Below, piece by piece: positions 11,986 to 50,754 of a stretch of 64,000 nucleotides of DNA (positions within the stretch are counted from its first letter, which is position 1; the number at the start of each line of letters is the position of its first letter). The stretch spans positions 53,258,001 through 53,322,000 of the forward strand of contig OX485804.1 of NCBI GenBank assembly GCA_950295325.1, given 5' to 3'. The position numbers were made by a program, and so were the translations under genes. The notes beneath the pieces were generated by a model. It did not search any database, was not told the DNA's origin, and saw nothing but the letters and a program-made list of their open reading frames with translations. This stretch comes from Polytrichum commune (Eukaryota > Streptophyta > Polytrichopsida > Polytrichales > Polytrichaceae).

Positions 11986-12597
11986 TAAATCAAGCACTAA
12001 ATATCCTATGGGCATTATTTCTTGATTTTCCCTTAGGTTGCGTTGGTCAGTTGTGTTATGGTACCTTTTCTTGCAATTGAACCTTCAATTTGTGCAACAA
12101 ATTAATTAATTAATCAAGCCTAGTTAGTGTACACTTACTACAATTGGGTTTTCAAAAAACAAACGTTTAGGTTAAGACGAGGTTAAAACATACTACTATA
12201 TAAGAGTTTCTAGATGTTGCCATAGACTATTGCAGCTACATATCTTGTCATTTGTGGCGTGAAACAAAAAAAAAATGCTCCAAATTATAGCAATGAACTC
12301 CATGAAGGAACACATGTTGTTTTGTTGTTTATAAAAAGTGAATGGCCAGAAAAAATGGCTACAATTTGAAGATTTAGCTCTTATTTCGTGATGATGGGAT
12401 AGAAATAATGCGTATTCAACTATCAATTTTTTTATTTTTTTTGATATTAACATAAGATTGTGTATCTCTCTTAAAAATTGGTGACAAGTTTACCACATTG
12501 TTACGACTAGCCATCATTTGAGTTCCAAGTCTTAATGCATCTTTTGCGAGCATAACAAGACTCGAGTTGTAGGGTATTGGGATGATGCAAAACCGGT

Positions 12598-13188
12598 TGG
12601 TCCGAGATGACCCTAAACTAGCGGGTGATAGTGAAGAGGTATTCATTTTCGAATGTAGTGGTTGGCGGTTCGATTCCCGATGTAAAAGTTTCTCTATACT
12701 TGACGGGAAAAACTAGCTAAATAAGTAGGAAGCCAAGAGCCCACTCGCTGCAAGGTAGGCAACAGAGCCCTACATCGGGCGCCCATACCCATGCCCATGC
12801 CCATACCCACCCATGCCCATGGGTTTTGGGTGGGCATGGGTGCAATATTATTGTTCATGGGCGGGCATGGGTGGCCATGGGTGGGGCACAATTACACAAT
12901 TACACAATTACACAATACACGTTACATAATTTTTTAATACATGGGCGCAATTTGAATAGCATGGGTGGGCATGGGTGGGCACATGTCATGCTATGTGTGG
13001 GCATGGGTGGGCATGGATGGGCATAGGTCGTTGCTGATGGGCATGGTCTGGGTATGGGTGCAATTAGAAAGGAAAATGTTGGGCTTTGGTAGGCAATAAA
13101 CCCCACCTTGCACCAAAAGGATTCTTGAGTAGGGTAGAGCCAACGGGCTCAAATACACGTCTGATTATTCGACGTTAGTCATTGATTT
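12598..13188 (+). mobile_element. SINE-A copy 1, split by a hAT-like MITE
   Basis: tRNA-derived SINE. The body starts TGGTCCGAGATGACCCT. An A-box-like GGTGATAGTG lies near 12623 and an exact B-box consensus GGTTCGATTCC at 12667-12677. The 3' part shares 'ggaagccaagagccca', 'attcttgagtagggt' and 'gacgtta' with three other copies. A 13-bp direct repeat, ATGCAAAACCGGT at 12585-12597 and ATGCAAAACTGGT at 13189-13201 (12 of 13 match), flanks it, showing retroposition. The element at 12763-13088 inserted later. Transcription would need host RNA polymerase III and mobility a LINE partner. Confidence 0.85.
12763..13088. mobile_element. hAT-like MITE inside SINE-A
   Basis: 326 bp between two exact copies of GTAGGCAA (12755-12762 and 13089-13096); the other SINE-A copies have a single such site. 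The ends are CAGAGCCC and GGGCTTTG, imperfect inverted repeats of the CARAGCCC type. An 8-bp duplication with CAG-type ends is the signature of hAT transposons. Much of the inside is a minisatellite of GGGCATGGGT-like units on both strands, with an ACACAATT run between (about 12890-12917). No coding capacity. Confidence 0.8.
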
Positions 13189-13201
13189 ATGCAAAACTGG
13201 T

Positions 13202-14094
13202 AATATTGAAATCTATGTGATATGTACATTGGATTATACACAATCTACATCATACATGCACATTATAGTAAGTACAAATATGTAGGACTATGATACGTTG
13301 AAGTTTGGGTCGGTTTTGATTCTACTTGCCCTACATATGTTCACAAACACTAGAAGTAGTTGACGCTCGCTAGCAAACGGTGCACGGATTCAAAGAGTTT
13401 AGAGCATAGCATGTACTTGACGATCGTAAATATGTGTTACAAATACATGCACAAGTACAACTTACATGTACATGCGAAACGATGTGAAGTCTTGGGGACG
13501 AGGACACATGCAATTTGCCTTTGTATTGCATGTCCCTTGTTCCCATGTTGGATTCTTCTAAGACGGGCCTTTTATTTTTCCCCAATGGAAATTATGTTGA
13601 TATGTGTGAAGGGCACGTAGTGCTAACCTTATGCCTATGCCCCCTCTCAAGTAGGATAAATGAGACATTTGGAGTGGAGTGACGGTGATGGTCAAAGAAC
13701 CTCACCACATAAGGGACACCAAGTTTGGTTGCTAAGAGCATCTTCACCGTTGATATCACATCTCTCTCCATGCTACTTTAGGAGGGAGTAGAAGCAATAT
13801 ATTCATCATCGTATTCCACCATATCTCTCTTTGAACTAGTCAACATATATTTGGGATAAATTTCATAATGAAGAGGGCATGCTAATTTCTATTTATTTAT
13901 GAAAATGGAGGGTCTTCTACCCCGATCAAACCTCTTTCAATGCTAGAAAGCTTGAATCTATCTATATATCTATCTATCTTACAATATTATTACACGTTTT
14001 GAGATTAAAGTGTAATGAATGAATTGACAATCACGGTTATAATAGTGTTACCTTTGCCATTATAGTTGAAGAAACCCTTCCATTTGAGGTAGAT
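13202..14094. other. No gene or element recognised
   Basis: Open frames of up to 86 codons overlap on both strands at 13360-13620, without a recognisable family. A short TATC microsatellite lies near 13960-13980. Confidence 0.35.
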
Positions 14095-14520
14095 GTGCCT
14101 AATTTGGGGTACGATCCTTAAGGGAGACCTATATTTGACTGGTGCATGGTTGGGTGTGAATCTAAGATGGGACACCAAAAAAGACATGTGTTGAGAGAGA
14201 TTGGAGTATGTGGTTCAAACTTGTTGATTTTTTACATGCACTAGTAAGCATTATGGGAGGGGCGGAGGGGGGGGGAGGGTGGGCTATGTGATCATTCAAT
14301 ACCTTCAAGAATCTTCACTTTGACAATGAACATGACATTCATACAAGCTTTCAAAAGTATGAGGGCAGTGGCTATGGGCATGAGGTGGATTTGCTAATCA
14401 TCTTGCACTGATTGCGTATTTCATATACTACGAGAAGTGAGTACAGAAGAAGGATAAGAAAGTTTCCATTTAAGACCCACTTAGCTTAGTATTCTATAAA
14501 CGCCTTCGCTACCATTTTAG
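14095..14520 (+). repeat. Repeat family R, upstream copy
   Basis: The left part (CCTATATTTGACTGGTGCATGG, 14129 onward) matches 37.76 kb and the minus strand of 0.1-0.2 kb. The right part ('tgctaatcatcttgcactgattgcg', then AGAAGTGAGTAC, then AAGACCCACTTA) matches about 16.75-16.82 kb and 37.99-38.10 kb. It lies directly upstream of the transposase pseudogene, and a partial copy lies downstream in the same orientation. It could be the end region or first ORF of the parent element, or an unrelated repeat. A G9 tract lies at 14267-14275. Confidence 0.45.
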
Positions 14521-15204
14521 AATAGGAATTGGAAGGAGATGTGTTTTGCCACAATTGGATATTGGTTGATGTGCATCCAACTTTGACAAACTTGGATCTC
14601 TTCATATTAGTAGTAGTTTTTAGCTCTCCTTGATCCACCTTCTTCCTCATCCGACATATTGACGTTGCAACCTCTCTTATACCTTTTAAATTACCTTCAA
14701 TGTCATCAAGGTGGCTTATTCAATACATGATGTGGCTCATTAGATGCAATACACACATACACAACCAATTAACAAACACAAAACTCTACATTTTCAATTA
14801 GAGAGAGAGAGAGAACACTGACCTTTGGAAAAACATATGTTTGATACAAGAATCAAACAATTGAAGAAAAAATGATCATGAAACATAAATTATGATTTGT
14901 TGTGATGGTTCATTCCTAGGGAGACAATCAAAGCAAATACTCATCGACTTTATTTGAAATATAACTAAAGTAAGAGCATTTGAAACTTAAATTGATAAAG
15001 TAAAAATACCAAAATGACAATCCAACTTGACAAACAACCAAAGAGGCAAGTAGACGAACAAATAGACATATATAAACTTTGTCAGGTCATAGATTGCACA
15101 AAGCACAATATGGGTAACAATTATAGGAGCAACATGAGGGAACAACATGAAGTGATCAAAAGACTTGATAAGAAGATCTACTCATCTATAATGTAGTTTT
15201 AGAT

Positions 15205-16355
15205 TTGGTTGGAAATCTTCATGACCAAGTATTGGAACTTGGTGTTGTTGATCCTCCTAGGCGTGGTGGTTTGAAATGTAGAAAAAAATCAAATTTTAGA
15301 TGGGAAAGAATTGAGGGGCATGAACATATGGTGAAGAACTACTTTGTGGACAATCCAACGTATGATACAAGGATGTCTCGTCAGAGGTTTAGAACGTCAA
15401 AGCACATGTCTTTAAAACTAGTAGAAAGTGTGGAGAACTATGATTTGTATTTTGTGCAAAAAAACAGATGCTACTGGTGAGTTGGGTTTGAGTAGTTTGC
15501 AAAAATATATAGCAACAATGCGTATATTGACTTACGGCATCGCGTTTGATGCCACTGATGAATATGTGCGATTGGCATTGAGGACATTCATGCATCTATT
15601 GAAACGATTCATTTAAGCCACTCGGGCTCTACATGAAAGCACATATCTTAGACAACCAACCAGAGAAGATCTAGAAAAACAAGTAGCTATCGACATAAAA
15701 CGTGGTTGGCCTGGTATGTTTGCATTGTTGGACTGTATACAATATGAGTGCCCTCTTATGTGGCAAGGAACTTTTCAAGTCAAAGATGACAAAAACTCCA
15801 TCTTGTTAGAAGCTATTGTAGTCCAAAGTTTGTGGATATGGCATGCGATATTTGGTTTGTATGGAAGAAACACTGATATTAATGTACTAGATCGTAGTCC
15901 TTTAGTGACTAACTTTTTGAAGGGGGATGGCCAAGTTGTGAGTTTTGTAGTCAATGATCACATGTATCCATATTACTACCTATTAATAGATTGTGTTTTT
16001 ATCCCCAATGGACTATATTTGTATAAACAATTCATATTCCCCGAGGAGAAAAACAAAAATGCCAAGATGCATGATTCTATGCCAAGATGCATGAGCTTTC
16101 AAACAAAAATGTGGAGTACTAGTTCGGTGTTCTACAATCAAATTGGGAATCATTCAAAATCCAAGTCACCAATGGAACTTGAAGGCCATCAAGTATATTC
16201 TAATGGCATGTGTAATCATGCATAATTTGATCATTGAAGACAAAAGAGACCAAGAAGTGGAGCCCATAATAACACAACCCAATCATGTACCATGGAGATG
16301 TGGACCAATGAATTGTGGATTGAACTTTCAAGATTATGTTTGTGACATGAAATGA
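15205..16355 (+). pseudogene. PIF/Harbinger transposase pseudogene (plant transposon protein type)
   Basis: Broken DDE transposase, the enzyme that cuts and pastes PIF/Harbinger elements. In order: HMVKNYFVDNPTYD and RFRTSKHMSLKLVESV (N-terminal part), DATGELGLSSLQKYI, MRILTYGIAFDATDEYVRL, RGWPGMFALLDCIQYECPLM (first catalytic D), ILLEAIVVQSLWIWHAIFGL, GRNTDINVLDRSPL (second D), a VEY..FGVLQS block (third acidic residue, codon about 16114-16116), and IIQNPSHQWNLKAIK then MACVIMHNLIIEDKRD (C-terminal). Lesions: an A7 run at 15458-15464 shifts the frame; an in-frame TAA stands at 15614-15616; around 16080-16145 the reading passes through three frames, with a TAG right after the third acidic residue. 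An open frame at 15014-15196 may be decayed 5' coding sequence. The family assignment is from remembered conserved blocks, and the order is fully colinear. It cannot be functional. Confidence 0.88.
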
Positions 16356-16599
16356 TTCATTATAAAAGGTCACACTACATGCTTAGAAATGACCTCTAGA
16401 ACATGTAATAAGATTTTTATTCATTTTTTTACTTTTTTCAAAATGCTATAAGTGCACTTTCATGTGTTTTTGCCCTTGATAAAATTGACAAGTTTTAGGT
16501 AAAAGAGCATGACATCTAGCATTGGTCGTGGTTCAATGCGTGTCTAAAAGAGAATAGCATGTGTGCTTAAAAGCTAGTTGTTAACCATTTTGTGTTGAA

Positions 16600-16830
16600 T
16601 AGTCAATGTAATTGGGGGGTGGGTGGGTCACATATATATGATCGTTCAATATGGGATAGGATCCTTACTTTGATAAAGAAATATGATATGCATATGACCT
16701 CCAAAATTTTGAGGTAAATGGCTAAGGCCTTGATTGAGATTTGTCAATCATCTCACACGCATACTACATCCTAGTATGAGAAGTGAACATAATCCTGAAA
16801 TTGTTTGGTTTTGACCCACTTATCTTATTG
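16600..16830 (+). repeat. Repeat family R, downstream partial copy
   Basis: It shares with 14.26-14.50 kb, in the same orientation: the G-rich start (GGGGGGTGGGTGGG), 'tgatcgttcaata', CTTTGATAA, 'aatcatct', 'gagaagtgaaca' and 'gacccacttatctta'. Similarity is patchy, so this is an old direct repeat bracketing the transposase. No clean ends are visible. Confidence 0.4.
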
Positions 16831-16945
16831 AGACCTCAGTTGGAGTATGAGAAATAATGTGAATTAGACTAATTTGAAGAGCCTAATCACACTTATGCTA
16901 TTTAGGATTTACTTTTTGAGGGAGGTTTAAATAGGAAGTGAGTAG

Positions 16946-17250
16946 TACACTATATATGATATTTAGTGTCATGTGGTATTTTATGTCACTATGGTAACTT
17001 TTTGGACAACACCTCTTATGAATAAGCGAGCAAATATTGTTATGGATGATGGATGAGTTCATCCATTGACCAAAACCCTACACTCTCTTGTCAGCAACTT
17101 GTGATGAAATATTGTCATGGATGATTGCAATCTGGATGAAAAACCTCTCAATAAACGACAGTACTGTAAACACTGTAAATCTATAATCCCCCCCAAAAAA
17201 CTTTAGAAGGAATGACACATAATGTTGGGTTAACATTTAGTGTTGGTGGC
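16946..17250 (+). mobile_element. M3 element, copy 1
   Basis: Begins TA then CACTATATATGATATTTAGTG and ends near 'ttaacatttagtgttggtgg'. Shared blocks with the 32.7 kb copy: 'tgtcactatggtaac' against 'ttgccatggtaac', the AACACCTCTTATGAATAAG region, and TTGTTATGGATGA. The boundary at the right is approximate. Confidence 0.5.
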
Positions 17251-17305
17251 TCTACAGCGGTTTACAATCAGTATTGAGCAAGACAATTAGAATTGGTGAC
17301 ACTAA

Positions 17306-17897
17306 GGGTTGCTTCACACTATGGCCGTCCAAGTCGAGAGGCCATAGTGTGGGATTGAATGGCCAAACTTTGTTGAGAGTCCAAAGAAATGGCTGAAAAT
17401 ACATAGCCAATAAGATATACGAATTGGAGCCTTTGGTCGGGCATAGTGTGAAACTTCCAACAGCCAAACCCAAAGTCCAAACCTTTGGCCATGAACTCCC
17501 ACGGGCCTCTCAACTTGGACGGCCATAGTGTGAAGCCTCCAAAGGCCAAGCCCAAAGTCCAAAGGAAGAAGGAGCATCCCACTTTATTCTCTGCCCAAAA
17601 CTACCCCTCCAATCTAATGACCAAGATCATGTCAGTTTATTTTTATTTCTTTTAATGAAAAAAAATCGACGGCCTCTTGACCATAGTTTGGGTTTCCGAT
17701 CTTGTCTGACCCAAACTTCCTTTAAGAGTCTGTCGCCTTGGTCAAAAAGTACTACCATGTAGGCATTTTGGAGAGCGACAGCCTTTGGACTTTGACCTCT
17801 AGTGTGAAGAGTCGAGAGGCCGAACTCTTGGTTTCTTGCAATCTGATCGGTGGAAATCAACGGCCTCTCGACCTTCAGGCATAGTGTGAAATGACCC
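17306..17897 (+). mobile_element. T3 Tourist-like MITE, copy 1
   Basis: 592 bp with inverted ends GGGTTGCTTCACACTATGGC and GGCATAGTGTGAAATGACCC, flanked by TAA on both sides. The ends continue inward as long imperfect repeats (GTCGAGAGGCC and GGCCTCTCGAC). Open frames inside it are shadows of these repeats. The end sequence closely resembles that of the element at 41995. Confidence 0.75.
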
Positions 17898-18013
17898 TAA
17901 ATATATCATATTTAACGTAGGATATCTAAGTGAGGTAATTACTACATTTATCCAGCAAAAATTGCTTCATTTAATGACCGCTAGTTGCAGATGAACGAAT
18001 TGAGTTTGATACC

Positions 18014-18164
18014 AGGGCCACACCGAAATACTCAGCAACTCCAGTCACCAAAAAGCCCAGCCCTACGTATTCTCCAGAAATACAGGGCTGGGATTTTAGA
18101 TGGCTGGAGCTACTGGAGTGGCTGGAAGCAGGCGGGCTTTTGGCTGGGCTTTTTGGTGTGGCCC
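18014..18164. mobile_element. Small MITE, 151 bp
   Basis: Inverted ends GGGCCACACCGAAATAC and TTTTTGGTGTGGCCC, with inner arms AAAAGCCCAGCCCT and AGGGCTGGG. The ends have the same GGGCC start as the T families, but the flanks (CCA on the left, TAG on the right) are not a clean TWA duplication, so the class is uncertain. Confidence 0.55.
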
Positions 18165-18564
18165 TAGTATGAGAAGTAACCAGGTGAAGATGATCAGGAC
18201 TTCAGAGTTGTAGAAAATTTACCAAACACTCAACCATGCAGCTGCCCGGGAAAAGTGAAGTTAGTGGGTGGGGCACTTGAATGTTACCCTTTTGCTTAAC
18301 TCCGATGAACTTGATGTTCTGTGCTTCGATCTTTGAGTTTCAGTTTGAGTTTCAGTTTGACTGCTGGTGATGCTACTTGTGAATGATAGACGTACTTATA
18401 ATGCCCCACCTGATGCACCCTTTTGCAATTGAAGTCTTTGCGTCTTCTTCCGAGCCGGCCGGGCAGAGCTCAAGAACTAAAGATGCCATTGATGAGCCCC
18501 GTCAATCCGCATTTTCACCCAACGTGAAACTGATCCGCAAGCTTTAACACCCCATAACTAAGGC

Positions 18565-19577
18565 CTCCAGTTTCACCTCACGTGAAAAACTGGCTCCATG
18601 CGGAGGGGCCCCCAGTGTTGACCTCTACCATCTTACGGTAACTTATCATAGGTCATTTCTTCTAGACCCTCCAGTTGTTACTTATGTACTAGCGTACACC
18701 GTTTATGGTATTTAGTGTCACGTACACTATTTGTGAAGGGCCTAAACTAGGTGCCTAGAGGTCTCAAAGTGTCACGCTTGTTGATTGCCAGTATGATTTC
18801 ATTTGTCATTCTAAGTAAGGACTCCAGTTTCACCTCACGTGAAAAACTGGCTCCATGCGGAGGGGCCCCCAGTGTTGACCTCTACCATCTTACGGTAGCT
18901 TATCATAGGTCGTTTCTTCTAGACCCTCCAGTTGTTACTTATGTACTAGCGTACACTGTTTATGGTATTTAGTGTCACGTACACTATTTGTGAAGGGCCT
19001 AAACTAGATGCCTAGAGGTCTCAAAGTGTCACACACGTTGATTGCCAGTATGATTTCATTCGTCAACATAAGTCAGGACTCCAGTTTCACCTCACGTGAA
19101 AAACTAGCTCCATGTGGAGGGGCCCCCAGTGTTGACCTCTACAATCTTATCATAGGTCGTTTCTTCTAGACCCTCCAACTGTTACTTGTGTACTAGCGTA
19201 CACCGTTTATGGTATTTAGTGTCATGCACACTATTTGCAAAGGGCCTAAACTAGATGCCTAGAGGTCTCAAAGTGTCACACGTTGATTGCCAGTATGATT
19301 TCTTTTGTCATTATAAGTAAGGACTCCAGTTTCACCTCACGTGAAAAAACTAGCTCCATGTGGAGGGGCCCCCAGTGTTGACCTCCACGATCTTACGGTA
19401 ACTTATCATATGTTGTTTCTTCCAGACCCTCCAGTTGTTACTTGCGTACTAGCATACACCATTTATGGTGTTTAGTGTCACGTACACTATTTGCAAAGAG
19501 CCTAAACTAGATGCCTAGAGGTCTCAAAGTGCCATACCTGTTGATTGCCAACATGATTTCATTTGTCAACATAAGTG
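18565..19577 (+). repeat. Four-unit tandem array, unit about 245-257 bp
   Basis: The marker CTCCAGTTTCACCTCACGTG recurs at 18565, 18822, 19079 and 19324 (spacing 257, 257 and 245). Every unit also carries GAGGGGCCCCCAGTGTTGACC, CCTAGAGGTCTCAAAGTG and an M4 left end, CACCGTTTATGGTATTTAG or a variant (18697, 18954, 19201 and 19457). Only the last unit runs on into a full M4 element. The array therefore arose by tandem duplication of a segment spanning flanking DNA and the M4 end. Confidence 0.85.
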
Positions 19578-20038
19578 ACCTCTTCAAATTGAATAAAATA
19601 TCTACATTATGACATTTAGAGTAGCGCATTGGGGACTATAGATGATAGTCTCAGTGTGTTTTAGTATGCAAGGGGAAGATGTTTTTGATTGTATTAATGG
19701 TAAGCGTCATGTGTTTACATTTTGGTATATAAGAAGAGGATATTCTTAAGCATACTAATGACAAGTGCCATGTGTTTACATTTTAGTATACAAGAGGAGG
19801 ATATTCTTGAGCATATTGATGACAAATGTCAATTGTGTCCACTATAGTCAACTTGTAGACCACTGTGTAATATAGGCATGCATCTTCTAACACTATTGAA
19901 CATACTCATGCCAAGATATTAGTGAGCACACTTGAATGCCAAGTGTCATGAGGTGACACTTATGGTAAAGTAGTTACTCATCAATGTAACTTAGCATGTG
20001 CCTCAAAACATGGTAAGTGGATAATACCATAAACAATG
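19457..20038 (+). mobile_element. M4 element, copy 1
   Basis: 582 bp from CACCATTTATGGTGTTTAG to ATACCATAAACAATG, with TA at both sides. The interior, including 'atgacatttagagtagc', 'gtcaacttgtagacc' and 'caagtgtcatgaggtgacac', is shared with the copies at 28.6 kb (inverted) and 30.0 kb. It contains an internal ~61-bp duplication around ATGTGTTTACATTTT (19710 and 19771). No coding capacity. Confidence 0.75.
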
Positions 20039-23000
20039 TACACATGATGACTTGACATACTTACGCTTTACCAATTGTATTTACTAAGTCATGGGGGTAA
20101 CAAGGAAGACAAATAATGAGAACATGAGGGCACGAGATAAAGAATGTAGTAAGGATTCACCATGCGAAATCATTGGCTTGTGGACGAGTTTAAAGATACT
20201 CATATCATTTAACCTCTAAAGGCTGAAGCAAAATCTTCCCAAATTGTTTGAAAGAGTTTAGTCCATTTCATCGGCTAGGGCTAGATGCCCACCTCTTTGA
20301 GTTGGGCCTTCATCAACGTTGTTAAAGCAGAGAGGGCTTGGTAAAAACATGAGCTCCATACATTTGTAATTAATTGGGTCATAGTACATGGGTCGTAATA
20401 AGTTGATCATGGGGTCATTGGTACTAAATCCGGGGCCAAATAATTCAAGAAATGCTTTCACACATTTATCTATTTTTATTTTCGGATACATTGTGGATTC
20501 AAAATCCATCTTGATTGAATGTAGGACCAATTGAGTTGAAGGTTGAAGTGAAGCTATTTGTGGCCATCATCTAAGTTGTAGTATGTTACACTAGTGACCA
20601 CTAAACACATGACTATCGTTTTCTAAACTCCTTCATTAGTTGAGAAACAAGTGGCAGTCCCACTTTGTCACACACAAGGTAATCACAAATAAATTTGACC
20701 ATGTCAGAAAATCAATGAGAAATCGACACAAAATCCTACATGTTCATAAATGGATAATGCTTAGTGCTCATACGGATTTTGTGGCAAGCCAACTTGAACA
20801 CTTTATCTCAACAAACATAGGGTGACCATCATGAGGAAAACTATTTATTGTTAAAATCCATTTTTTTAGTAATACTATCCTCCATCAATTATAGGAGGTT
20901 TTCACTAGGAACACTAATTCATGGTCTTTAGCTGCCGGGAAGTCCACTTTACATTTTGTTGTGTGACCAAGGCTTTTATAAAGTAATGTTGATTCCTCTT
21001 GGTCGTGGCTTTGGACTACTAACCATGACCCTGAGATATGCCACAAAAGCCCCAACGCTTAGTCACATGTGTGGAATGACCCATAGCATTTATCGATTGT
21101 CATTCACACCACTACCAAAAAAAAAAAAAATGAGTATCAACCACAATGTTAACTTAGGAAAGAGGAATACAAGCGAACCTCTCATTCATTTGACAATATG
21201 CAATATGGAGGTATTCTAATTCAATTGGGTTGACACCATAATTAGCTTCAAAAATCACAAATTACTTTAGATGGAGTCATTTGAGATGAAGCAATCACAA
21301 ATACGCGAGGGGTCAAGTTTTTAGGTTGGATGGATGAGAGGTACGCTTGTACACAACAATTCTTTCTCGCCATACACTTAGTACCAAATTAAATTAGAAG
21401 AAGATTTTGTTGGTTTGTGGACTAGCCAGTGGTTCTAGAATCTAAATGGATAAGCCGAGTTCACATTATGGATAATAATTATTGAATTTGTTTGTGTAAG
21501 GAAGGTGGTTTGACTTATAATATTTTCACATGCATGACTAAGGTAGTACAGGTCCAATAATGTCGATGACCCCATTTCCAACACCTACTTTCCGCCAAAA
21601 GCAAGCAACTACGCACTTCAACATGAACACTGCTACGAGCATGAGACCTAGGCAACTTGTCCTGTGTTGGCGAGTTTCTTGCAAATCTAATACTTACATT
21701 GATGGATTTTTAAAGTATTTTCTATGATGCACGACGATTTACACCAATGCGAATGCAAGATGCCTTGGACTTGTATGCTTATAGTGCACTAATCGTAATA
21801 TTCAAAGGACTAAAATTGGAACTTGTTGTGGAAACCCTTAAACGTTGTTTTATGGAATGCAAGACACTCCACATAATTTGGAAACTCTCTAGTAGCGGTA
21901 GAAGTAGCTTAGGTAGGGAAGGACCTCTTGTAAAGAGACCATCACCGGCATTACTCATGCCACTAGGCACAATAGTCACTACAATCACAATACCAAGAAA
22001 GAGATGTTAGTTGGGACCATGCTTAGGTCCTCTATTTTGCATAGTCGGTGGACTAGATGTAGGAAGGTTTTGTATTTTATACTTTTCCAATGAGGATATG
22101 ATAGTGGAAAACACTTGTTATAGAGCTTGGAGTGAAAGCATCCACACGAGAATGGCGCATGGAAACCAAATTATGAAGTACGTTGAGTATAGAAGTGCAA
22201 AGAATCAAGTGGCCCTTGAGGCCGAATATGTGAGCATTTGGTGTGCCGGTGAAGTGCTTTGTAAAGGTGACTTCTCTTCCCTTCAATTGAACTTATCCCC
22301 TCCTTTCTCCCCCAATCAAGAAATCCCCTTTCCCATAAATGGAATTGGTTGGCTCCCTTTTTATGGTTTCATGAATTCACCTTGTTTCTTTCCAAACCTA
22401 AAAAGAAAAAGACAAAGTACAACTCATTGGTTGAAAGAGATACATTATTAACGATCAACATTGTCCACTATGGGAGGGCCTTTGTGCCTGGGAACATTCC
22501 TTTATAATTTAGATATGAGATGTATGATGTCCAATGAGACATATGACTTGAACATTCCTATATAAATTAGATATGTTTCAATCCATGCGATCCCACCATC
22601 ATTCACGTGCTCAAAATGTAATTGCTAATCCAAAAGAGAAAAAGATTAAAAAAAAATGAATAGTTTGCATGGGTTAGGTAAAGGTCCGAAAAGTTCAAAA
22701 TGTCCATGATAGGCACTTCTACCTTGTATCTAGTAGAGAGGTTTATGCATATGTGGCATGTCCCATAGAAAGGTTAACATAGGTGGATAGGCAGGGTCCA
22801 CTATATATGTCGATTATTTATATAATAAAGAACTCTATAAATGTTTATTTATTTATCTTTATAACACATATTTTTTATAAGATTGGAATATTTGAAGGTC
22901 GAAATTTAAGTTTAGGATTGCCTTTGGAGTGATTGTTCATTGTGTAAATCTAATCGGCAAGAGTTGGAGAAAATGTTAAACTAACCAAATAGAACCAACA

Positions 23001-23476: not shown

Positions 23477-23489
23477 CTTGGCAACTTAG

Positions 23490-23837: not shown

Positions 23838-23850
23838 CTTGGCAACTTAG

Positions 23851-41386: not shown

Positions 41387-41643
41387 CAAGGTTTGAGATG
41401 ACCTTAAACTACTGGGCGATAGTGGAGAGGTACCCATTTCCAAACGGAGTGGTTGGCGGTTTGATTCCCGTTGCGAAATCTTTCTCTACTTGACGGAAAA
41501 AAAAACTAGGTAGGTAGGTAGGAAGCCAAGAGCCCACCCACTGCAAGGTAGGTACTAAACCTCACCCTGCACCAAGAGGATTCTTGAGCAGGGTAGGGCC
41601 AACAGGCTCAAATTCATGTCAGGTTGCCCGACGTAAGCTATTT
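41387..41643 (+). mobile_element. SINE-A copy 2
   Basis: 257 bp flanked by the exact 15-bp repeat ATTTATTCATTTCAA (41372-41386 and 41644-41658). A-box-like GGGCGATAGTGG, B box GGTTTGATTCC, a GGTA run, 'aagccaagagcccaccc', 'gaggattcttgagcagggtagg' and a CCCGACGT end match the other copies. The tail is TATTTATT-like and merges with the target repeat. Confidence 0.88.
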
Positions 41644-41994
41644 ATTTATTCATTTCAAGATAATTGAACTTAAAAATCAGTCTACCTTACCATAAACAAA
41701 ATACCAAAAAAACAACACGAAATGATATCCTCACAACATTGGTTGTTAATAGTGGTTTTGGTAAGCTCAATATCATGAGGTACAAACATTCTAAACCCAC
41801 CCATCAACGGTGGGGACGAAACAACCCACACACTAGTTCCTTGGAAGCAAGGGTTGGGTTCGAATGTATGGGTTGGTTCGCCCAACTCACCACTCAACAC
41901 CCAAAAATCTTTCACTTAAAACACGTGTGCGCCTCTTGGAAATGCCCACATCCTCAACACCATGCTCCCCTTGTCAGTCTTTCGCATCAACTTA

Positions 41995-42356: not shown

Positions 42357-42940
42357 TTACACAACCCTAAAACTTTTGAACCCTTTATTTATATAACTGT
42401 TACGGAATTCAAATAAGACACACTTTGTTGGTTGTGTCGGAATCCCACGCCAATTGCTAACGGGAACCGTTTTAAATAGTTTTCAAAGATCATGAAATCT
42501 ACACTCAAAGCTCATATATAGCTGGGGACGGGCTTGGCACTTTTAAACCCAGGTAAGGAGTTTGAATAAATAAGGGTGGACAAAAGGAAGGAATCAGGAA
42601 ATGAAGGAAGGCCAGTAGTGCACTGGCTATTGTCCCTGGCCCAAGATCGGCTTCCCGCATCTTGGCTGAGAAGTACATGCGCCTGGCCACCAACAGTCAG
42701 AGGCTTCAGGAGTTTTTGAACAAAGGATTGAATTGGGGGTTGAGCCCCGAGAAAGTTTGCTTTTAAAAAAACACCCCTTGGGGGCCTCCACGTATCATGT
42801 GTAGTAGTAGTAGTACTACTAAGTTGTCGGTGTATAGCTTACAACTATGCCTGCGAAGCCGGATTTGAATTTATGAAAGAGAGGAAAAAAAAAAACAAAC
42901 AAAAAAACAATAAGATTGCTGCAGCCTAACATTGGAAACA

Positions 42941-42970
42941 CCACACCCACACCCACACCCACACCCACAC
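42941..42970. repeat. (CCCACA)n microsatellite
   Basis: About five hexamer units. Confidence 0.85.
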
Positions 42971-43121
42971 TTGCAATGGTACACGTTTGAAGGTTGTGTA
43001 CTTATGGTCACTGCACACACGAACCAAGGGCCGTGAGTACTGGAATTCCAACATCTAGAGTCTTTATTCTCGAATCTATTGATGGGCCCGAGAATACAAG
43101 TCTTAAGGTTGAGTAATGTTG

Positions 43122-43725
43122 GGGCCATTTCACACGCAAGGCTGAAGGCCCTTGATCATGGCAATGTAAGAGCTCTCATTGGTCGAAAAGGAGGAGACTG
43201 TCCAAGTTGACTTCACACTAGGAGGTGAAGGCCTAAATGCCCAAAGAAAAGTTCGTGGATGAAAAGTCTACATGGAGTCCTACATGGCAGGTTATGGATA
43301 AGGGTGCATGGTCTACCGGAATTTGCGTCAGGGCCATCTCTTGGAGGTGGGCCTAACGAAAATTCCGGGAGACCATGATTTTCTTTAAATATTTTTTCCA
43401 GTAGGTGAGATTTAAGGACAAATGTCATGGAAAATTCCAAAACGGATTCCAAGACATACTCCAAGACACACAAACACCACCAAGTAATTCTCTTAAATTG
43501 ATAAAGTTTGAGACATATTAAATTAAACCAAATCCTCCTCACTTTTCCCACCAACAGAGTATGCAATGGTCCCGCAACATGGTCCATCCTCACTTCACTA
43601 TATGCTTGAGGGCTCGTGACTACATAAAACGGCTTTCCCAACACCCATGGTACGGCCTTTGGATGAGAGTCAAGGGTCCTCACCATTTCAAGGTCACGGC
43701 TCTTGGCTCATGTGTGAAGTGGCCC
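43122..43725 (-). mobile_element. Diverged T1 Tourist-like element
   Basis: 604 bp, GGGGCCATTTCACACGCAAG-type left end and 'catgtgtgaagtggccc' right end. The flanks are TTG and TTA, so the duplication is imperfect. Inner blocks such as 'tcttggaggtgggcctaac' and 'ggtcacggctcttggctc' are shared with T1, but the middle (about 43.38-43.55 kb) is different. Confidence 0.6.
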
Positions 43726-44058
43726 TTATGCTCCACATTTCTACAAGTGTAGTGTCAAGAGAGATTTGGAATATAGGTGATAAGCTTTTAGGAGATGCCG
43801 TGTGACAAAATAAGCATGAAAAAGTTCCACCCTACTACAGGTACAACATCCATGCCACTCAAATTTCTTTAATACACATTGACCGTGGCTACTTGGATAG
43901 TAGGAATTGTAAGCACAAAACTAGTGTATTAAGAAACTCGTTTATGAAGTTAAGGTTTATCACAGTATAAACAAGTAAGATACAATCACATTCACTGTCA
44001 AGACCTGGGGAGAAATATGAGGAGCGTTGAGCATAGTCATTGAAGTGCATTTTTTTTG

Positions 44059-44570
44059 TCTAATTAGTGTGGGTTACTATTTGAAGTTACACATTGCTAC
44101 AACATTTTACTGGAAGTATCATGTTCTACCCAACTAACATAAGTAGTTAAGGTAGAGGGGCCCTTTCCCGCTCGGGTCCTTAAACCACTCACTAGACCTA
44201 TCCAAACAAGAGGTACATTATAGCTTCCAACCTCAAATTTCTATGTAATCATAGTGACATTTTTGGGGTGAGTGGTTTTGGGTACCCCTATGAGTTCTCC
44301 TTCCAAAATGCATAACTAATTTAATATTAATCCAAAATTAATTATTCCAATTGGTCCAATTTCCAATGTACTTTGCACATCTTCCAAGATTGATTCCCCC
44401 TTAATAACTCCCCAATGAACATGCCAATCTGAAATTCGAGCGGGAAAGGGCCCCTCTACCTTAGTACGCGCACCGGAGGATGCGATATGATTTAGTTGGT
44501 AAGAAATGATCATCTCTGTAAAACGTTACAGCAACATGTAACTCCGAATGGCGACCCACACTAATTGGAC
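44059..44570. mobile_element. M5 element, copy 2, interrupted
   Basis: Ends GTCTAATTAGTGTGGGTTAC and CGACCCACACTAATTGGAC continue inward for about 53 bases with some mismatches (including GAAGTTACACATTGCT and its complement). Without the insertion at 44150-44461 it is about 200 bp. The exact target duplication is unclear. Confidence 0.6.
44150..44461. mobile_element. M2-related MITE nested in M5
   Basis: 312 bp with a perfect 25-bp terminal inverted repeat (44150-44174 and 44437-44461) beginning AGGTAGAGGGGCCC, flanked by TA on both sides. It shares the outermost AGGTAGAGGG with M2 but not its interior, so it is a separate family or a strongly deleted derivative. Perfect ends suggest a fairly recent insertion. 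Confidence 0.78.
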
Positions 44571-44954
44571 AAATCAGTGTAGCTCATGTCAACAATAAAA
44601 GGGGTCATCAAAACCCTCTCATCACAACTTTGTCTTGTTGGAATCGACTCGTAGTGCTTGTTTTGTTGGAAATTTCGCAACGTGAGAGACACTTGAATTG
44701 ATTATTATGGTCTCATCACGTCTTGGTTTTAAGGTGAGTGACCTCACATTTTTAACCACGAAATAATTGACAAGATGAACACTTGTTCAGCTGAAAATTT
44801 CAGAATTTTCCATCATTGGTAAGCGATTTATCCCTTCGACGATGTCTTGGTAGCCCACATGGACGATGAGGAGACCATACTTGCAATGGATCGGCAACGG
44901 GTTCAAGAACAATTTCCCAACCTTTCGTGCCGGTCCACCAAGCCCAAGAGCTTA

Positions 44955-45460
44955 GGGCCACTTCACACACGAGACTAAGAGCCCGTGACCATTACACTTC
45001 AAGTACTCTCATTGGTGGAAAAGGCGGAGCCGGTCCAAGTTCGCTTCACACTATGCTTGAGGGGACCAACGGAGTATGTGAATGCAAGATGGATGTAACG
45101 TCTACATGCATTCCTACATGGCATCGAATGGATGAAGTTTTATGGTCACTCGGACTATTTTCAAAAACCACCTTGTTGGAAGGTAGGCCGAACAGAAAAC
45201 CGGGAGACCATGGCACTCCGAACGCTCACGACCATTGGTCTATCCTATTTTATCATGTGTGAGGACCCATTTGCATAGAAATTCATTGAAATAACATTTG
45301 GGTTGAAGACCTGGTCACATATGGCTTCACACTACACTTGAGGGTGCGTGACCACACTACATGATGTTGGAGGTGTGTTGGGACGGCCTTGGGACACTTT
45401 CTTTGGGGCTCTCACAATTTCATGGTCACGGCTCTTGGCTCGTGTGTGAAGTGATGTGCC
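44955..45460 (-). mobile_element. T1 Tourist-like MITE, copy 7
   Basis: Begins GGGCCACTTCACACACGAG after TTA. The right end reads CGTGTGTGAAGTGATGTGCC, disturbed by a small insertion or mutation, so the right target copy is lost. Interior as in the 6.8 and 39.4 kb copies. Confidence 0.72.
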
Positions 45461-45559
45461 ATGAATTAGTTGGCCGGCACAACATCCCCACAGAGAGCAA
45501 GTGACCTTCAGTCCCAGGGCCACACTTTGGAAGCATTGCAGGAGAAGCCAGAGACTTTA

Positions 45560-45720
45560 GTAGGCTCTACCAGAAACACAATCCGAGGACGGAATGTGGT
45601 ATGGAGAGGAGGGATAGTGCTAAGGTCGTGGAATGTAAACACGTGGATATTGTGGTGTGCTAACAAGCTCAAATTGACTAGAGTTTAAAAAATAAAACTC
45701 CACATGGTTAAAAAACCATG
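45560..45720 (+). pseudogene. Possible LINE endonuclease fragment
   Basis: A plus-strand frame reads VLRSWNVNTW, then NKLKLTRV. A few frame changes later it reads MMVTETWL (about 45717-45740). The order WNVN, NKL, TETWL matches the start of the exonuclease-endonuclease-phosphatase domain of non-LTR retrotransposons (metal-binding N and the (Q/T)ETW glutamate). It is short, frameshifted and cut by a CACTA-type end at 45774. No reverse transcriptase motif was seen nearby. The call rests on three short motifs, so it could be chance. Confidence 0.3.
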
Positions 45721-45773
45721 ATGGTAACTGAGACTTGGTTATAATCGGGAAGGTAGGTGGTAACAAGAGATGG

Positions 45774-46030
45774 CACTAGTAGAAAAGTGTGCCAAAAGGA
45801 ACCACAGCTAAACTGGATGCGGTTCTTTTGACCAGCCTGATTTGAAGTCGCTCAATGATTGCATATTTGCTTTTGGGGGTTTAGCGATTGAAATTTTAGG
45901 GATTTGGGGGCGTGTAATATATCATTGGAAAGGTCTTGCATAATGTCTTTCCAATAGTGTATTACATGCCCCAAAGTTTTAAAATTGCATCACGAAAAGA
46001 AAAATATATAGTCATTTAGCGACTGCACAT
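45774..46030 (+). mobile_element. CACTA-type terminus with fold-back
   Basis: Begins CACTAGTAGAAAAGTGTGCC, the form of many plant CACTA (En/Spm) ends. Next is GGTTCTTTTGACC, then a long imperfect inverted repeat: AAGTCGCTCAATGATTGC to CATTGGAAAGGTCTT on the left and GTCTTTCCAATAGTGTA to TTTAGCGACTGCA on the right. The same series recurs at 55.0-55.5 kb. No opposite end (TTTTCTACTAGTG) was found, so the extent is unknown. Confidence 0.5.
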
Positions 46031-46054
46031 CATTTCAGCAAGAATTACAGTTTT

Positions 46055-46077
46055 GAGAGAGAGAGAGAGAGAGAGAG
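46055..46077. repeat. (GA)n microsatellite
   Basis: About 11 uninterrupted GA units. Confidence 0.9.
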
Positions 46078-46180
46078 TTTTTTGGAAGGACGAGAAAAGA
46101 CAATTTTGGGAGGAAGGATTCCCTAGAATGAGTTCAAAAACAAGAACTATGGAAATAAATGCAGATTTCGAGACAAATGC

Positions 46181-46634
46181 GTGATTTTGCTTGTTGATAT
46201 GAAACAAAGATGGGTTTTGTTCACCAAGATCAAGTTCAAGAAAGAGATGAAGGCATGGGTTTTGAATGGAGAAGGATGTTTGTTAGGGTTTGACTCAACA
46301 TCTACACTGTGGCATAAAGTAGGTGAGAATGTTAAAGGATGTCGGGCGAAACTAAAGGGACCAACCAGACCCCAATGACCAAAATTTGGGAAGAATAGCT
46401 CTAGGGACAGTAGTACCAAAGCATGATCAAGTAGGCGCGTTCAATGCAATATGTTGTAGGACAGTATTGGCCCTGAGATGCCGATCATATCAAGCGGGGA
46501 GTTTACTAGTTGGGCGAGAAAGATACATGATCTTCGAGAAGAGTAACATGGGATTGGTTCATGGATTTAAGTATAACAAGAGATTTTTGGCAAGATTTGC
46601 ACACCATCGCTCAAGCGTAAAGGAGCTACACTAG
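46181..46634 (+). other. Unrecognised coding-like stretch
   Basis: Two plus-strand open frames follow each other in different phases (46181-46378 and 46386-46634, 65 and 82 codons). Base composition looks less AT-biased than the surroundings. Neither translation (for example MKQRWVLFTKIKFKKEMKAW) matches a family I recognise, and the minus strand has a competing 90-codon frame. It lies downstream of the LINE-like and CACTA-like pieces and may be decayed element coding sequence. Confidence 0.25.
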
Positions 46635-47301
46635 GGTAAGAAAGGTGAGAAAACCCATTAACACACTCTAATTGTGGGGTTGCCTTGGGAGGTAGGGGTT
46701 GGGTTCTTTTCTCCCACACATATGTTATTTGTGAATATTCTTGAATGCCTTGTGGTACCTAAACAATCTAGGTTATTTTAACCCACAAATACTTGATAGA
46801 GGTCATCCTTTGTTATTTGTAGTAGATTTACAATTTATAATTTATGAAAAGAACGTTAAACCCTATGTTTTATCCCACCATTTGTTAAAGATTTTGGAAG
46901 TGGCCCCTCCCTCCCTCATGGCCCACTTGAGACTAACAAAATAGATTTCCCCTTCCTTGTAAGTCACGTGTGCATTTAGAAGATAATCATAGTCACTCTA
47001 CATATGAACCTCAAGAATCCAATTCTTATGCAAAATATGTCATTATAGATTATATTCATTTATATATGTCATTTATACGGTTTATTGCATCACGGATGAA
47101 GGCAACAACATGATATACAATGGTTGGAGGTGGCCACTTAGGAAAAAGGTCCAGTATAGGGAGATAATTAACCAATCGTGAATGGCTCGACATAAGCTAC
47201 TGAATCAACTTTTGACCCGGAAGCCGAATGACTAGGCTAGATGTTGCATTTGGTGGAACTAATTCTATTTGTCTCCCTCAACACTAACTGTAAACTGCCC
47301 T
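46635..47301. other. No gene or element recognised
   Basis: AT-rich; one 67-codon frame, no repeats seen. Confidence 0.35.
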
Positions 47302-47696
47302 TGTAGTGTGGCCAACACTAAATGTAAACCTAACTTATTTGTCATTCCTTGTCAATAAAATTAGGCATTATAGATAGATACACAATGACTGCCACTTATG
47401 AAGTGGTTCCCCATCCAAATTTCAACCATCCATGATAGTATTTCATTACATAAATGAGAATTGAATGAAATCCATGCCAATTATACCACCTAGTTACTGA
47501 AACAAAGTTTGGTGTATTATGCATCCTAACAATCGTGTAATGAAAGATTGACATAGGTGATTGAACTTTGGATGAGAATTCACTTGGTAAGTGGCAGCAA
47601 TCGCAACATTGTAAATCCACAATGCCCAAATGTATAAAAAGAACAACAAATAATGCAAGATTTACATTTTGCGTTGGTGACACTACATACAATATC
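47302..47696 (-). mobile_element. M3 element, copy 3 (inverted)
   Basis: TGTAGTGTGGCCAACACTAA at the left is complemented by 'gcgttggtgacactaca' at the right. Reverse-complement blocks (GGTTTACATTTAGTGTTGG, 'taggatgcataatacacc', 'catggatggttgaa') match 32.7-33.07 kb. Confidence 0.6.
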
Positions 47697-48337
47697 TAGT
47701 GCACATCTTGAGGGAGAAAAGACTCAAAATCACTCAAATTTGAGTAAGATCCAAAGAACATTTAGGGCCGTGGTCAGAAGAGGCCGTGTAGGGTTAATAG
47801 AGGTTGTGGAGAAATGCCAAAGGGGGCATTTACCCTCAACGGCCACACCCATATCCCCACTCTATTTTAATAATTGGAAGTTTCGGCGCATAATGTGTAG
47901 ACTTGAAAACCTGGGCAACAAAAGAGGCTTCGGATGCCTTGGGCATAATTGTCAATGAATGGCTCCACTGGTGGTGGTCGTGGCATTACCCCCAGATGGC
48001 CAGGGACTCGGGAGATGGAAGTGAATGTTCATGATTAGGAGACACATAATGCAGGCTTGCCAAACGCAAGGGGACGGGTAAGGGCATTGTCTTTTGTGTT
48101 CTCTCGCCTCACCCGATTTCATCTTTGTTGCTAACCCAACGAAACGAAATCTATAGCAAGAAAGTCATAGCTTTGTGTAACTCCAAATAATAAGTGACAT
48201 AAGACGGTGTCGTGGTCTTTCGTATCGAGAAAGACGTGCCTATGGTCGAGAAACCAGAGGTTCTTCTGTTCTTTTGGTCTTTGGTGGTATCGACAACCGT
48301 ACATCTGGCGTTGACCTACGGGTTCACTCTTCAAATA

Positions 48338-48607
48338 AGTAAATAAGTAAATAACCAACGTCAGGTAATCCGATGTGAATTTGAGCATATTGGTTGTATT
48401 GTGTTCAAGAATCCTCTTGGTGCAGGGTGGGGTTTACTACCTACCTTGCGGTGGGTGGGCTCTTGGCGTCCTACCTACCTACCTACCTATCTAGTTTTTC
48501 CCGTCAAGTAGAGAAAAGATTTCACAACAAGAATCGAACCGCCAACCACTCCATTCGAAAATGGGTGCCTCTCCACTATCACCTGTAGTTTAGGGTCATC
48601 TCGGACC
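48338..48607 (-). mobile_element. SINE-A copy 3
   Basis: 270 bp on the minus strand, flanked by TCACTCTTCAAATA (48324-48337) and TCACTCTGCAAACA (48608-48621), 12 of 14 bases alike. B box GGTTCGATTCT, a GGTAGGTAGGTAGG run, and the 'ccaagagcccaccc' and 'aatcctcttggtgcaggg' (complement) blocks match the family. The tail reads TTATTTACTTATTTACTTAT. Confidence 0.85.
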
Positions 48608-48933
48608 TCACTCTGCAAACACTAGACTTCTATACCTTACGGCTTCTCATGTTTTCTAGTTAGAAGTATACAACGAATCCTCCCACTGGTTCAGTCGACT
48701 TATAGCCCACCCACACTTATTGGTCTGCACCACCAATGAGCGGTTTCTACCAGCACTAGTTACATCCAATGGCTCTCATTAGCCAAATTGGAGCTAAAAG
48801 TAGCGCTTGTTAATAAAAGCCGTTCACTAGTGACCCACACCAATAAATGTGGGTGGGCTATTACACTATACATCTCGTATATCTCTCATGATTCCTATGC
48901 TAAAATGCCATCAGTTAATAAAATTGGATATGG

Positions 48934-48938
<5 letters not shown>

Positions 48939-48968
<30 letters not shown>

Positions 48969-48987
48969 TACATACATACATACATAC
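48939..48987. repeat. (CA)n then (CATA)n microsatellite
   Basis: About 13 CA units run into six CATA units; the histidine/threonine-rich open frames over it are artefacts. Confidence 0.95.
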
Positions 48988-49174
48988 TAGGGCCAACTGG
49001 TCCGTTGGAAAGGGAGGTTGGGGCTCCCTCTTGGCTTCCTATTGTTACTCCTTCTCATGTGACTGTTCATAAAAGCTTTGTGATCTCCATTATCCTTTTC
49101 AATCCTCTGGGTTCTCCTGACTTTACTATCGTGTTCTTACCAGTTTCTGATGTATTTGCTTTTGTAAACGTTAA

Positions 49175-49212
49175 GCCTAAACCCTGAACCCTGAACCCTA
49201 AACCCTGAAACC
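49175..49212. repeat. Degenerate telomere-type repeat
   Basis: Five heptamers of CCCTAAA / CCCTGAA, two of them close to the plant telomere unit on this strand. Probably an interstitial relic or chance expansion. A similar CCCTGGA run of three units lies at about 58873-58892. Confidence 0.6.
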
Positions 49213-49621
49213 AACCCGAATATTCTACCCCTAACAGTAACAATTTAGAGTCCATGGAATGTGGTGGAGAAGTTGCATTTTTATCCAAACAGGGTTTAAT
49301 GAAACCCACGCAATGTGGTGGGGGTTACATGAACACCAAAGGATGTTGAATGGAGAACCACATCACCAAACTTTGTAGACCTACTACCTACTACCATTGG
49401 TGAGGTCTAAGGAAGTTGGACCACCGCTTGGAGAGGGGTAGAAAAGAAAAAGAAAAAATAACGCCCATATCATGTACCGGCATGAATGCGAGCCCGTTAA
49501 CCCGTAACTGATCATGTTACCCATGATGCAGTATGGGGCATTATGCCTCTTTCTTGGGGAGGGGTATAAGAAACGACATCAAGAAAGGGGAGAGTTAGCA
49601 GCTAACCCTTGATGTTTCTCT

Positions 49622-49883
49622 TCTAGTATGAGACGACCCTAAGCTACCGGGTGATAGTGGAGAGGTACCCATTTCCGAATGGAGTGGTTGGCAGTTTGAT
49701 TCCCGCTATGAAATCTTCTCTCTACTTGATGGGAAAAATACTAGGTAGGTAGGTAGGAAGCCAAGAGCCCACCAATCACAAGGTAAGCAGTAAACCCCAC
49801 CCTGCATCAAGAGGATTCTTGAGTAGGGAAGGGCCAACGGGCTCTAATTCACATCGGATTGCCCGACGTTATTTATTTATTTA
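49622..49883 (+). mobile_element. SINE-A copy 4
   Basis: 262 bp flanked by the exact 12-bp repeat TGATGTTTCTCT (49610-49621 and 49884-49895). The A-box region reads GGGTGATAGTGGAGAGG, the B box GGTTTGATTCC appears as AGTTTGATTCC, then the GGTAGG run, 'ggattcttgagtaggg' and CCCGACGTTATTTATTTATT. Structure complete. Confidence 0.88.
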
Positions 49884-50754
49884 TGATGTTTCTCTCCCAA
49901 AATCAGAAAAAAAAAACTGTGAGAGCTACCTTGGTTAAGCAATTTCTTGTCCCTTGTTCTTGTGTATATGGGGGCATTAAGCCTTGTTTGAGCCCACATG
50001 GGTGCCAAGTATTCCCACCCAACCAAACCTAGCCGGGGCTAGACACCCACTTCTTTGAGTTGAGCCTACCACTATCACCCAATGTGAAAACACAATTAAG
50101 TTTGTTATAGAAAACCTTTTTTAAAGATAATTTGACCCCATATTTAGCATCGGAGGCCCAACATTAGTCTAGAATTACCCATGGAAGATGAATTGACCAC
50201 GATTTTATGAGGATCAAGTTTCTACTAGACCCCCTTTACTTGGGGACCTATATCTTAAGTCAAGGAATCAACAAACATACACTTCTCATAACTATAACTA
50301 AATAAGGGAAGCTCTAATTTTTAATCCAATTTTTTGTTGATACTTCATTCAAGATTTTCTAATGCAACATACCTTACTACACTCAATGGAATGATATGGT
50401 TGTTAATGTTATGCAATGACCCAGTGAGAAAACACATCAAGTTATTTGGGACGCCTTGTAGGATTATGGTAGGATTGAGTGGCAATGGACTCTCTCGGAC
50501 TTGGAAAAGGCCCCGGACGTTGCTTACCAAGGTGCCTTTAACAAATTCAATTCAATTTGTTTTTTTTGGGGGGGGGGGTCAAAGGTCTTATTATGACATG
50601 CAATAACTTAGTGGTTATGTGGAAGGTTAAGCCCCAAATGGATGTTGTTTCTTGATTTCCCCTCAGTCTGCGTTGGTTCTCCCAAGATTTCGTTCCTTTC
50701 TTGCAATTGAATTCTCAATTTGCACCCAAAAAGAAAAAGAAAAAACAAACCTTA

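Follow-up and report, generated by a model that had tools for sequence, protein, structure and literature searches.

In the green alga Chlamydomonas reinhardtii, four short interspersed nuclear element (SINE) entries, SINEX-1, SINEX-2, SINEX-4, and SINEX-5/6, carry 3′-ends derived from long interspersed nuclear elements (LINEs) of the RandI/Dualen type, as set out in the accessible portion of PMC3747384. The same portion lists pairs of SINEs and LINEs from land plants, namely ZmSINE2 and ZmSINE3 with LINE1-1_ZM and TS with RTE-1_Stu, and for the maize pair the available excerpt of PMC2774510 describes, in its lineage, a 3′ stem-loop whose stem letters vary. Dualen/RandI elements combine two endonucleases, one apurinic-type and one restriction-like, RNase H is likewise known from them (excerpts of PMC4640811 and PMC3636483), and Dualen has been described in several Chlamydomonas relatives (excerpt of PMC8226300). 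Among the literature matches listed, chiefly openly available papers, there was no land-plant SINE with a Dualen/RandI partner and no paper on the SINE family that is the subject of the present work; a full-text search with six words of the SINE returned one unrelated paper. Here we describe this family, represented by four copies in a stretch of 64,000 nucleotides of the Polytrichum commune genome (assembly GCA_950295325.1, contig OX485804.1, positions 53,258,001 to 53,322,000 of the forward strand), which in its entirety is referred to as the window. We consider it likely that this SINE of a land plant is mobilised by a LINE of the Dualen/RandI type with two endonucleases, that most of a four-helix 3′ module has been kept by compensatory changes, and that (TTTTC)n in the tail has been replaced by (TTTA)n, avoiding termination by RNA polymerase III (pol III).

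The initial annotation of the window had proposed looking for a LINE whose 3′-end resembles that of the SINE, and the proposal proved fruitful, as an abundant LINE matches the last ~110 nt of the SINE. This LINE is of the third type encountered and is found among RVT_1 matches of ~804 bp. Alignment of the SINE 3′-half with the very 3′-end of the LINE gave E-values of 1.7e-6 (L110), 7.2e-5 (L108), and 8.8e-4 (L109) in three of the first six copies; in the remaining three, the alignment falls at this position too but is individually without significance, and LINE copies retrieved later reached E-values down to 3.9e-8 (L122, 72% identity over 97 nt). Since homology among the LINE copies ends within ~50 bases past the match, the match represents the LINE's own end and not a nearby SINE. 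For the last 131 residues of the LINE protein there are 5,092 first-look candidates in the genome, and all 150 that were scored match at E below 1e-59. Two other types of LINE were considered and rejected. When the 1.8 kb downstream of 20 of the 141 zf-RVT matches that represent L1-like LINEs were compared with the SINE end, none of these 3′-flanks matched convincingly, and a score of 16 at L097, against a shuffle maximum of 14, was judged to be due to chance. The second LINE type (684-bp RVT_1 matches, L101–L107) has unrelated 3′-ends, the best stray match being at E=0.037; several of its open frames extend over ~1,430 residues.

The 3′-ends of both elements can be folded into one RNA module. 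It was delimited in 41 of the 46 fetched stretches expected to hold a LINE end (L108–L113, L116–L155); the remaining five comprise two exact duplicates (L138, L142), two stretches that begin later and offer no start (L127, L128), and one that offers no end (L140). After L129 (deleted), L136 (repeated segment), and L141 (end too late) had been dropped, 38 LINE ends were aligned, for which RNAalifold predicted 33 pairs in four helices, with changes on both sides at 15 pairs. Over the 33 pairs, pairing was maintained in 95.9% of the cells, compared with 90.2% after shuffling of columns and no more than 40.7% after sliding of partners, and cells with double changes numbered 91 as against 30.5 in shuffles. 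The SINE consensus, folded alone, forms the same stems (z=-2.74 relative to shuffles, 2 of 200 being as good): an outer stem GAGCCC/GGGCTC surrounds two hairpins and is followed by a terminal hairpin and then by the tail. In the SINE ends, 82.7% of the cells pair (80.3% in shuffles, at most 46.5% with slid partners) and 46 show double changes, compared with 21.1 in shuffles. From LINE to SINE, the commonest pair at the 33 positions is the same in 20 cases, changed on both sides and still pairing in seven, changed on one side in none, and lost in six, three of these losses being due to a shorter terminal hairpin in the SINE; the alignment underlying this comparison (A3, 52 SINE ends) was fitted to the LINE model and thus leans towards it. 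Taken together, these findings support a fold shared by LINE and SINE ends, the SINE keeping most of the four-helix layout. As expected of a SINE with a partner of the stringent type, the family thus has its 3′-end in common with a LINE from its own genome, and the RNA structure is conserved.

A covariance model of the 38 LINE ends, containing no SINE, was run over the window (E≤1) and returned five places, which correspond to one LINE end and all four SINEs (Table 1). In the module of copy 1, the 5′ strand of helix 1 has been removed by an insertion, and the SINE letters restart at 13089. The LINE end (model match at 49458–49568, 71.1 bits, E 3e-16) belongs to a 5′-truncated copy of the partner that is as short as a SINE and lies ~60 bp from SINE copy 4. 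A hairpin pattern that required non-SINE letters upstream could not find the partner because it excluded letters common to LINE and SINE. Its sole match, L100 (C1:58933700-58937700), is an internally deleted SINE copy; it lacks consensus positions 202–228, a segment containing 3′ strands of the outer helices, yet is flanked by a perfect target site duplication (TSD) of at least 11 bp, and its deletion may have occurred either before or after insertion.

The coding content of the partner LINE resembles that of Dualen/RandI. An open stretch of 1,170 residues in L114 matches RVT_1 at 114.5 bits and Exo_endo_phos_2 (PF14529) at 31.5 bits (cut-off 27.4), and L115 matches PF03372 at 24.6 bits (cut-off 24.5), that is, an apurinic-type endonuclease lies upstream of the reverse transcriptase (RT). 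In L109, the adjoining 1,202 residues contain an RNase_H domain (PF00075, 56.1 bits) downstream of the RT and, between the two at residues 462–550, a PCIF1_WW match whose 28.3 bits fall below the cut-off of 31.1. In a genome-wide search with PF12237, 150 of 697 candidates were scored and all 150 exceeded the cut-off, some of them lying in open frames of up to 2,924 residues. The C-terminus of the LINE protein displays CxxC...HxxxxC (CCHC), RxxRHN, and KxxKY in six of six copies and RPD...E in four of six, motifs that we take to denote a zinc knuckle and a putative restriction-like endonuclease; profile searches of this C-terminus yielded nothing significant (best E=1.6). In a comparison with PDB entries, R2 was closest to the LINE RT (E 1.6e-31), followed by L1 ORF2 (E 5.5e-18), and the LINE protein had no match among phages. 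L115 also carries two 2A-like motifs, GDIELNPGP and GDIEINPGP, which are ~800 bp apart and fit the rule D[V/I]ExNPGP given in the accessible part of PMC4981915, whereas GDIHPNPGP in L114 departs from it. As both endonuclease types together with RNase H are known from Dualen/RandI, the partner is called Dualen/RandI-like, a designation that refers to domain and motif content rather than to the position in an RT tree, and it is identified at the level of the LINE family.

All four window copies are members of one SINE family. Using BLASTN and reading of the ends, they were located where they had originally been placed: the copy at 41387–41643 retrieved the other three with 285, 257, and 151+93 bits, the last two values belonging to a single copy split by an insertion, while the top score in five windows of shuffled letters was 22–29 bits. 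Each copy is flanked by a TSD with at most one mismatch. Of the lengths given for these in the initial annotation (13, 15, 14, and 12 bases), the third has to be corrected to 12 (copy 3). The variable GGTA run described there is present and differs in length among the copies, and the 3′ block is conserved as claimed, but its end CCCGACGT is not universal, as copies 1 and 3 deviate from it. The tail of the SINE is (TTTA)n-like.

Table 1. Coordinates of SINE copies, their modules and promoter-like motifs, and associated elements in the window
Feature	Position	Strand	Remarks
SINE copy 1	12598-13188	+	interrupted by hAT-like element; TSDs 12585-12597/13189-13201, 12/13 identical
SINE copy 2	41387-41643	+	intact; TSDs 41372-41386/41644-41658, 15/15 identical
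SINE copy 3	48336-48607	-	TSDs 48608-48619/48324-48335, 11/12 identical
SINE copy 4	49622-49883	+	TSDs 49610-49621/49884-49895, 12/12 identical
3′ module, copy 1	13079-13178	+	LINE-only covariance model, 25.3 bits, E 1.5e-4
3′ module, copy 2	41528-41637	+	LINE-only covariance model, 60.3 bits, E 1.7e-13
3′ module, copy 3 (degraded)	48355-48464	-	LINE-only covariance model, 23 bits, E 5.8e-4
3′ module, copy 4	49763-49872	+	LINE-only covariance model, 56.8 bits, E 1.3e-12
Partner LINE, 5′-truncated, 113 bp with tail	49440-49552	-	TSDs 49553-49565/49427-49439, 12/13 identical
A-box-like motif, copy 2	41420-41430	+	TAGTGGAGAGG; fit to A-box consensus
B-box-like motif, copy 2	41458-41468	+	GGTTTGATTCC, family consensus GGTTCGATTCC; fit to B-box consensus
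hAT-like non-autonomous element inside copy 1	12763-13088	.	326 bp; assigned by TSD length and ends

Across the assembly (407.8 Mb in 64 contigs, seven of them large), a search with copy 2 retrieved many copies with common 5′- and 3′-ends, as had been anticipated, and the 40 top matches are distributed over all seven large contigs. Of these matches, 39 were fetched with their flanks, the 40th being the query itself. A list of the places of an exact 15-mer supplied 40 more copies from its first 41 entries, which all lie on contig 1; the remaining entry had already been fetched. Together with the four window copies, the 79 fetched copies make up a sample of 83. Alignment of 42 copies gave a consensus of 261 nt that includes part of the tail, the family element measuring ~255 nt. 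The 5′-end of the consensus is sharp and lies near GGTCCGAGATGA, and its 3′-end consists of the hairpin and (TTTA)n. TSDs scoring at least 8 were detected in 50 of the 83 copies as compared with 12 of 410 mismatched flank pairs, and at a score of at least 10 the counts were 30 of 83 and 1 of 410. In keeping with what defines a SINE, the elements are short and dispersed, have their ends in common, and bear TSDs of variable length behind a 3′-tail. In 11 copies, the match to the consensus starts beyond position 15, at positions 33 to 174, and three of the 11 have a TSD score of at least 8; such late starts fit reverse transcription that proceeds from the 3′-end and stops early, while some of the 11 may be merely diverged. 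Common flanks or homology running past the stated ends, named at the outset as signs of segmental duplication, are not a general feature of the 83 copies, the pair L017/L022 discussed below being the exception. With the SINE masked, comparison of the 83 flanks at E≤1e-6 produced 13 matches involving 15 loci, and apart from this pair the matches (45–183 bp, 69–86% identity) look like other repeats located nearby.

Two 15-mers of the family, CAAGAGGATTCTTGA and AGTGGAGAGGTACCC, occur 447 and 618 times in the genome (controls, 1 and 0). Eleven of 40 fetched copies bearing the former also bear the latter, from which a capture–recapture calculation (618 × 40/11), assuming independent loss of the two 15-mers, estimates ~2,250 copies, with 1,400 to 4,200 as the range derived from the exact binomial range of 11/40; the first-look candidate count for the SINE is 2,687. 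Four copies in 64 kb, the density from which abundance had been surmised, would imply ~25,000 copies, well above this estimate. With ~0.35 copies expected per 64 kb, the window represents a local cluster. Identity to the consensus in 28 copies taken as near full length has a median of 88.7% and ranges from 73 to 92%. Among the 40 copies obtained via the 15-mer list, L042, L052, and L065 have diverged furthest (73–77% identity to the consensus) and are perhaps older subfamilies.

The consensus contains TAGTGGAGAGG at positions 34–44 and GGTTCGATTCC at positions 72–82, which, judged by their form, we take to be an A box and a B box, the latter showing a good and the former a tolerable fit; the A box starts ~30 nt from the 5′-end of the SINE. 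The original description of the family as tRNA-derived could not be substantiated beyond these motifs. The Rfam tRNA model, rather than the tRNA genes of this genome, served for comparison and gave no match at E≤10 in two window copies and ten genome copies, so that it is the boxes that suggest a tRNA origin. Rfam searches at gathering and relaxed thresholds returned no relevant family, and ARAGORN found no tRNA within the window.

The tails of SINE and LINE differ. TTTT, which acts as a pol III terminator, is present in the 30-nt stretch of all 41 delimited LINE ends, mostly as part of (TTTTC)n, a count that is partly built in because the end-finder made use of T runs. The SINE consensus contains no TTTT, and the motif occurs within the first 20 nt past the module in 11 of 76 SINE copies, flanking letters being counted where the tail is short. 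We infer that avoidance of the pol III terminator underlies the difference, the alternative being an unsampled LINE subfamily with a (TTTA)n tail. The 3′-terminal ~110 nt of the SINE are related to the end of the Dualen/RandI-like LINE, and we hold with considerable confidence that this LINE mobilises the SINE RNA via the shared fold. In such a pathway, pol III would transcribe the SINE from its internal A/B-box promoter, and the LINE protein would recognise the four-helix fold on the resulting RNA. Target-primed reverse transcription would then start on the short tail repeat, and its products would display (TTTA)n tails suggestive of slippage, an occasional 5′-truncation, and TSDs of ~8 to 18 bases. 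Replacement of the LINE's (TTTTC)n by (TTTA)n would spare the SINE an early end of pol III transcription at TTTT.

Several observations weigh against this interpretation. The ends of SINE and LINE agree in no more than 70–73% of their letters over ~97 nt, and no LINE with the exact terminal hairpin or the (TTTA)n tail of the SINE was found among the LINE ends sampled. Within the fold, the SINE lacks pairs 12–22, 44–61, and 45–60 and has a shorter terminal hairpin. The LINE shows no more additional pair types than shuffles do (288 of 500 as high), and the 14 double-changed pairs in the SINE, compared with 11.8 in shuffles, are reached by 81 of 500. A sequence-only model returns the same five places in the window, with 33.8, 33.2, 21.2, and 24.7 bits for copies 2, 4, 1, and 3; structure improves the E-value of the two better copies (2 and 4), whereas the degraded copies 1 and 3 obtain better E-values without it. 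At 60 of the 79 fetched SINE loci (L001–L020, L040–L079; E≤0.01), the sequence-only model finds 57 and the structured model 56, so that the relationship can be recognised without structure. In favour of structure, at the 55 loci found by both, the structured model gains bits in 54 (median +14.5) and improves the E-value in 43 (median ~15-fold), values to be read with the qualification that scoring mode and calibration are not the same for the two models, the bits therefore not being strictly comparable and the E-values being rough. In addition, 33 of the 83 copies have no TSD at a score of 8, and the tRNA ancestry of the SINE is not confirmed. Finally, L017 and L022 have in common 155 bp directly 3′ of the tail (93% identity), while their 30 upstream bases differ and neither had a TSD in the reading made at the alignment stage; the common flank could mark a longer, 3′-extended subfamily, or it could have arisen by transduction of the 3′-flank or by duplication of a repeat.

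The letter identity and the differing tails would also be expected if SINE and LINE modules both stemmed from a third, unsampled LINE lineage with a (TTTA)n tail, the sampled LINE being a cousin of the true partner. We regard this scenario as quite possible: the LINE copies form several subfamilies, and the 46 fetched ends are a small part of the 5,092 candidates. Its consequence would be a different subfamily as the partner, not a different kind of LINE. Far less room is left for mobilisation by an ordinary L1-clade LINE via the tail alone, in which case the LINE-like 3′-half would be an inherited relic with no present role. L1-like LINEs are diverse and numerous (the 141 zf-RVT matches were obtained among 150 scored of 322 candidates), and poly(A)-ended flowering-plant SINEs without LINE homology are many, according to the accessible portion of PMC3747384. 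The tail of the present SINE, however, is not poly(A), the 20 L1-like 3′-flanks do not resemble its end beyond the chance-level score mentioned above, and by most measures the changes at its paired positions follow the structure, which makes the proposal improbable. That the family spread by segmental duplication or as a DNA transposon, specifically a miniature inverted-repeat transposable element, although direct repeats do flank the copies and L017 and L022 do share a 3′-flank, hardly deserves consideration, as the other flanks differ or share just pieces of other repeats, TSDs are of varying length, the consensus showed no terminal inverted repeats, the A–T tail precedes the 3′ duplication, some copies are 5′-truncated, and variable TSDs behind a tail are found in copies on all seven large contigs.

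A few further features were recorded. The insertion that splits SINE copy 1 has an 8-bp TSD, GTAGGCAA, at 12755–12762 and 13089–13096 and the termini CAGAGCCC and CAAAGCCC; from TSD length and ends, we assume it to be hAT-like. It is repeated in the genome (724 first-look candidates, of which 40 were scored) and rich in CCCATG/GGGCAT repeats. Elsewhere in the window, an open reading frame of 169 residues at 15716–16225 resembles a fragment of a PIF/Harbinger transposase. One contig of the assembly carries rbcL, trnR-CCG, and accD, the last recognised by reading of the protein, in this order, an arrangement characteristic of the plastids of bryophytes as opposed to those of flowering plants; bryophytes retain trnR-CCG, and most flowering plants have lost it. 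The seven large contigs would be compatible with a moss such as a member of the Polytrichaceae.

The partnership between SINEs and Dualen/RandI elements is known from green algae, and what the Polytrichum family would add is the link to a land plant and the change of the tail. If the proposed relationship is correct, stringent, structure-based template recognition by Dualen/RandI-like LINEs would reach beyond green algae to land plants. The covariation defines a precise, testable RNA substrate for the LINE protein, and the tail difference suggests an equally testable rule for adapting a LINE end to a pol III transcript. Like the SINEX entries of Chlamydomonas, as described in the accessible text, the family combines a 3′-end related to that of a Dualen/RandI-like LINE with short terminal repeats other than poly(A), which in SINEX include (ATT)n and (CTTT)n; the likeness is one of description, and unlike the alga, the host is a land plant. 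With ZmSINE2 and ZmSINE3, the family has in common internal motifs of A- and B-box form as well as a 3′-end shared with a LINE, and with TS the latter feature. In contrast, the partners in these land-plant pairs are L1 and RTE elements, and the maize tails are poly(T) or poly(A), so far as the available excerpts describe them. The partner LINE in turn resembles Dualen/RandI, as portrayed in the excerpts at hand, in its apurinic-type endonuclease, in its RNase H, and in a putative restriction-like endonuclease recognised by its motifs, and compared with that description it additionally features 2A-like motifs and a PCIF1_WW match below the cut-off.

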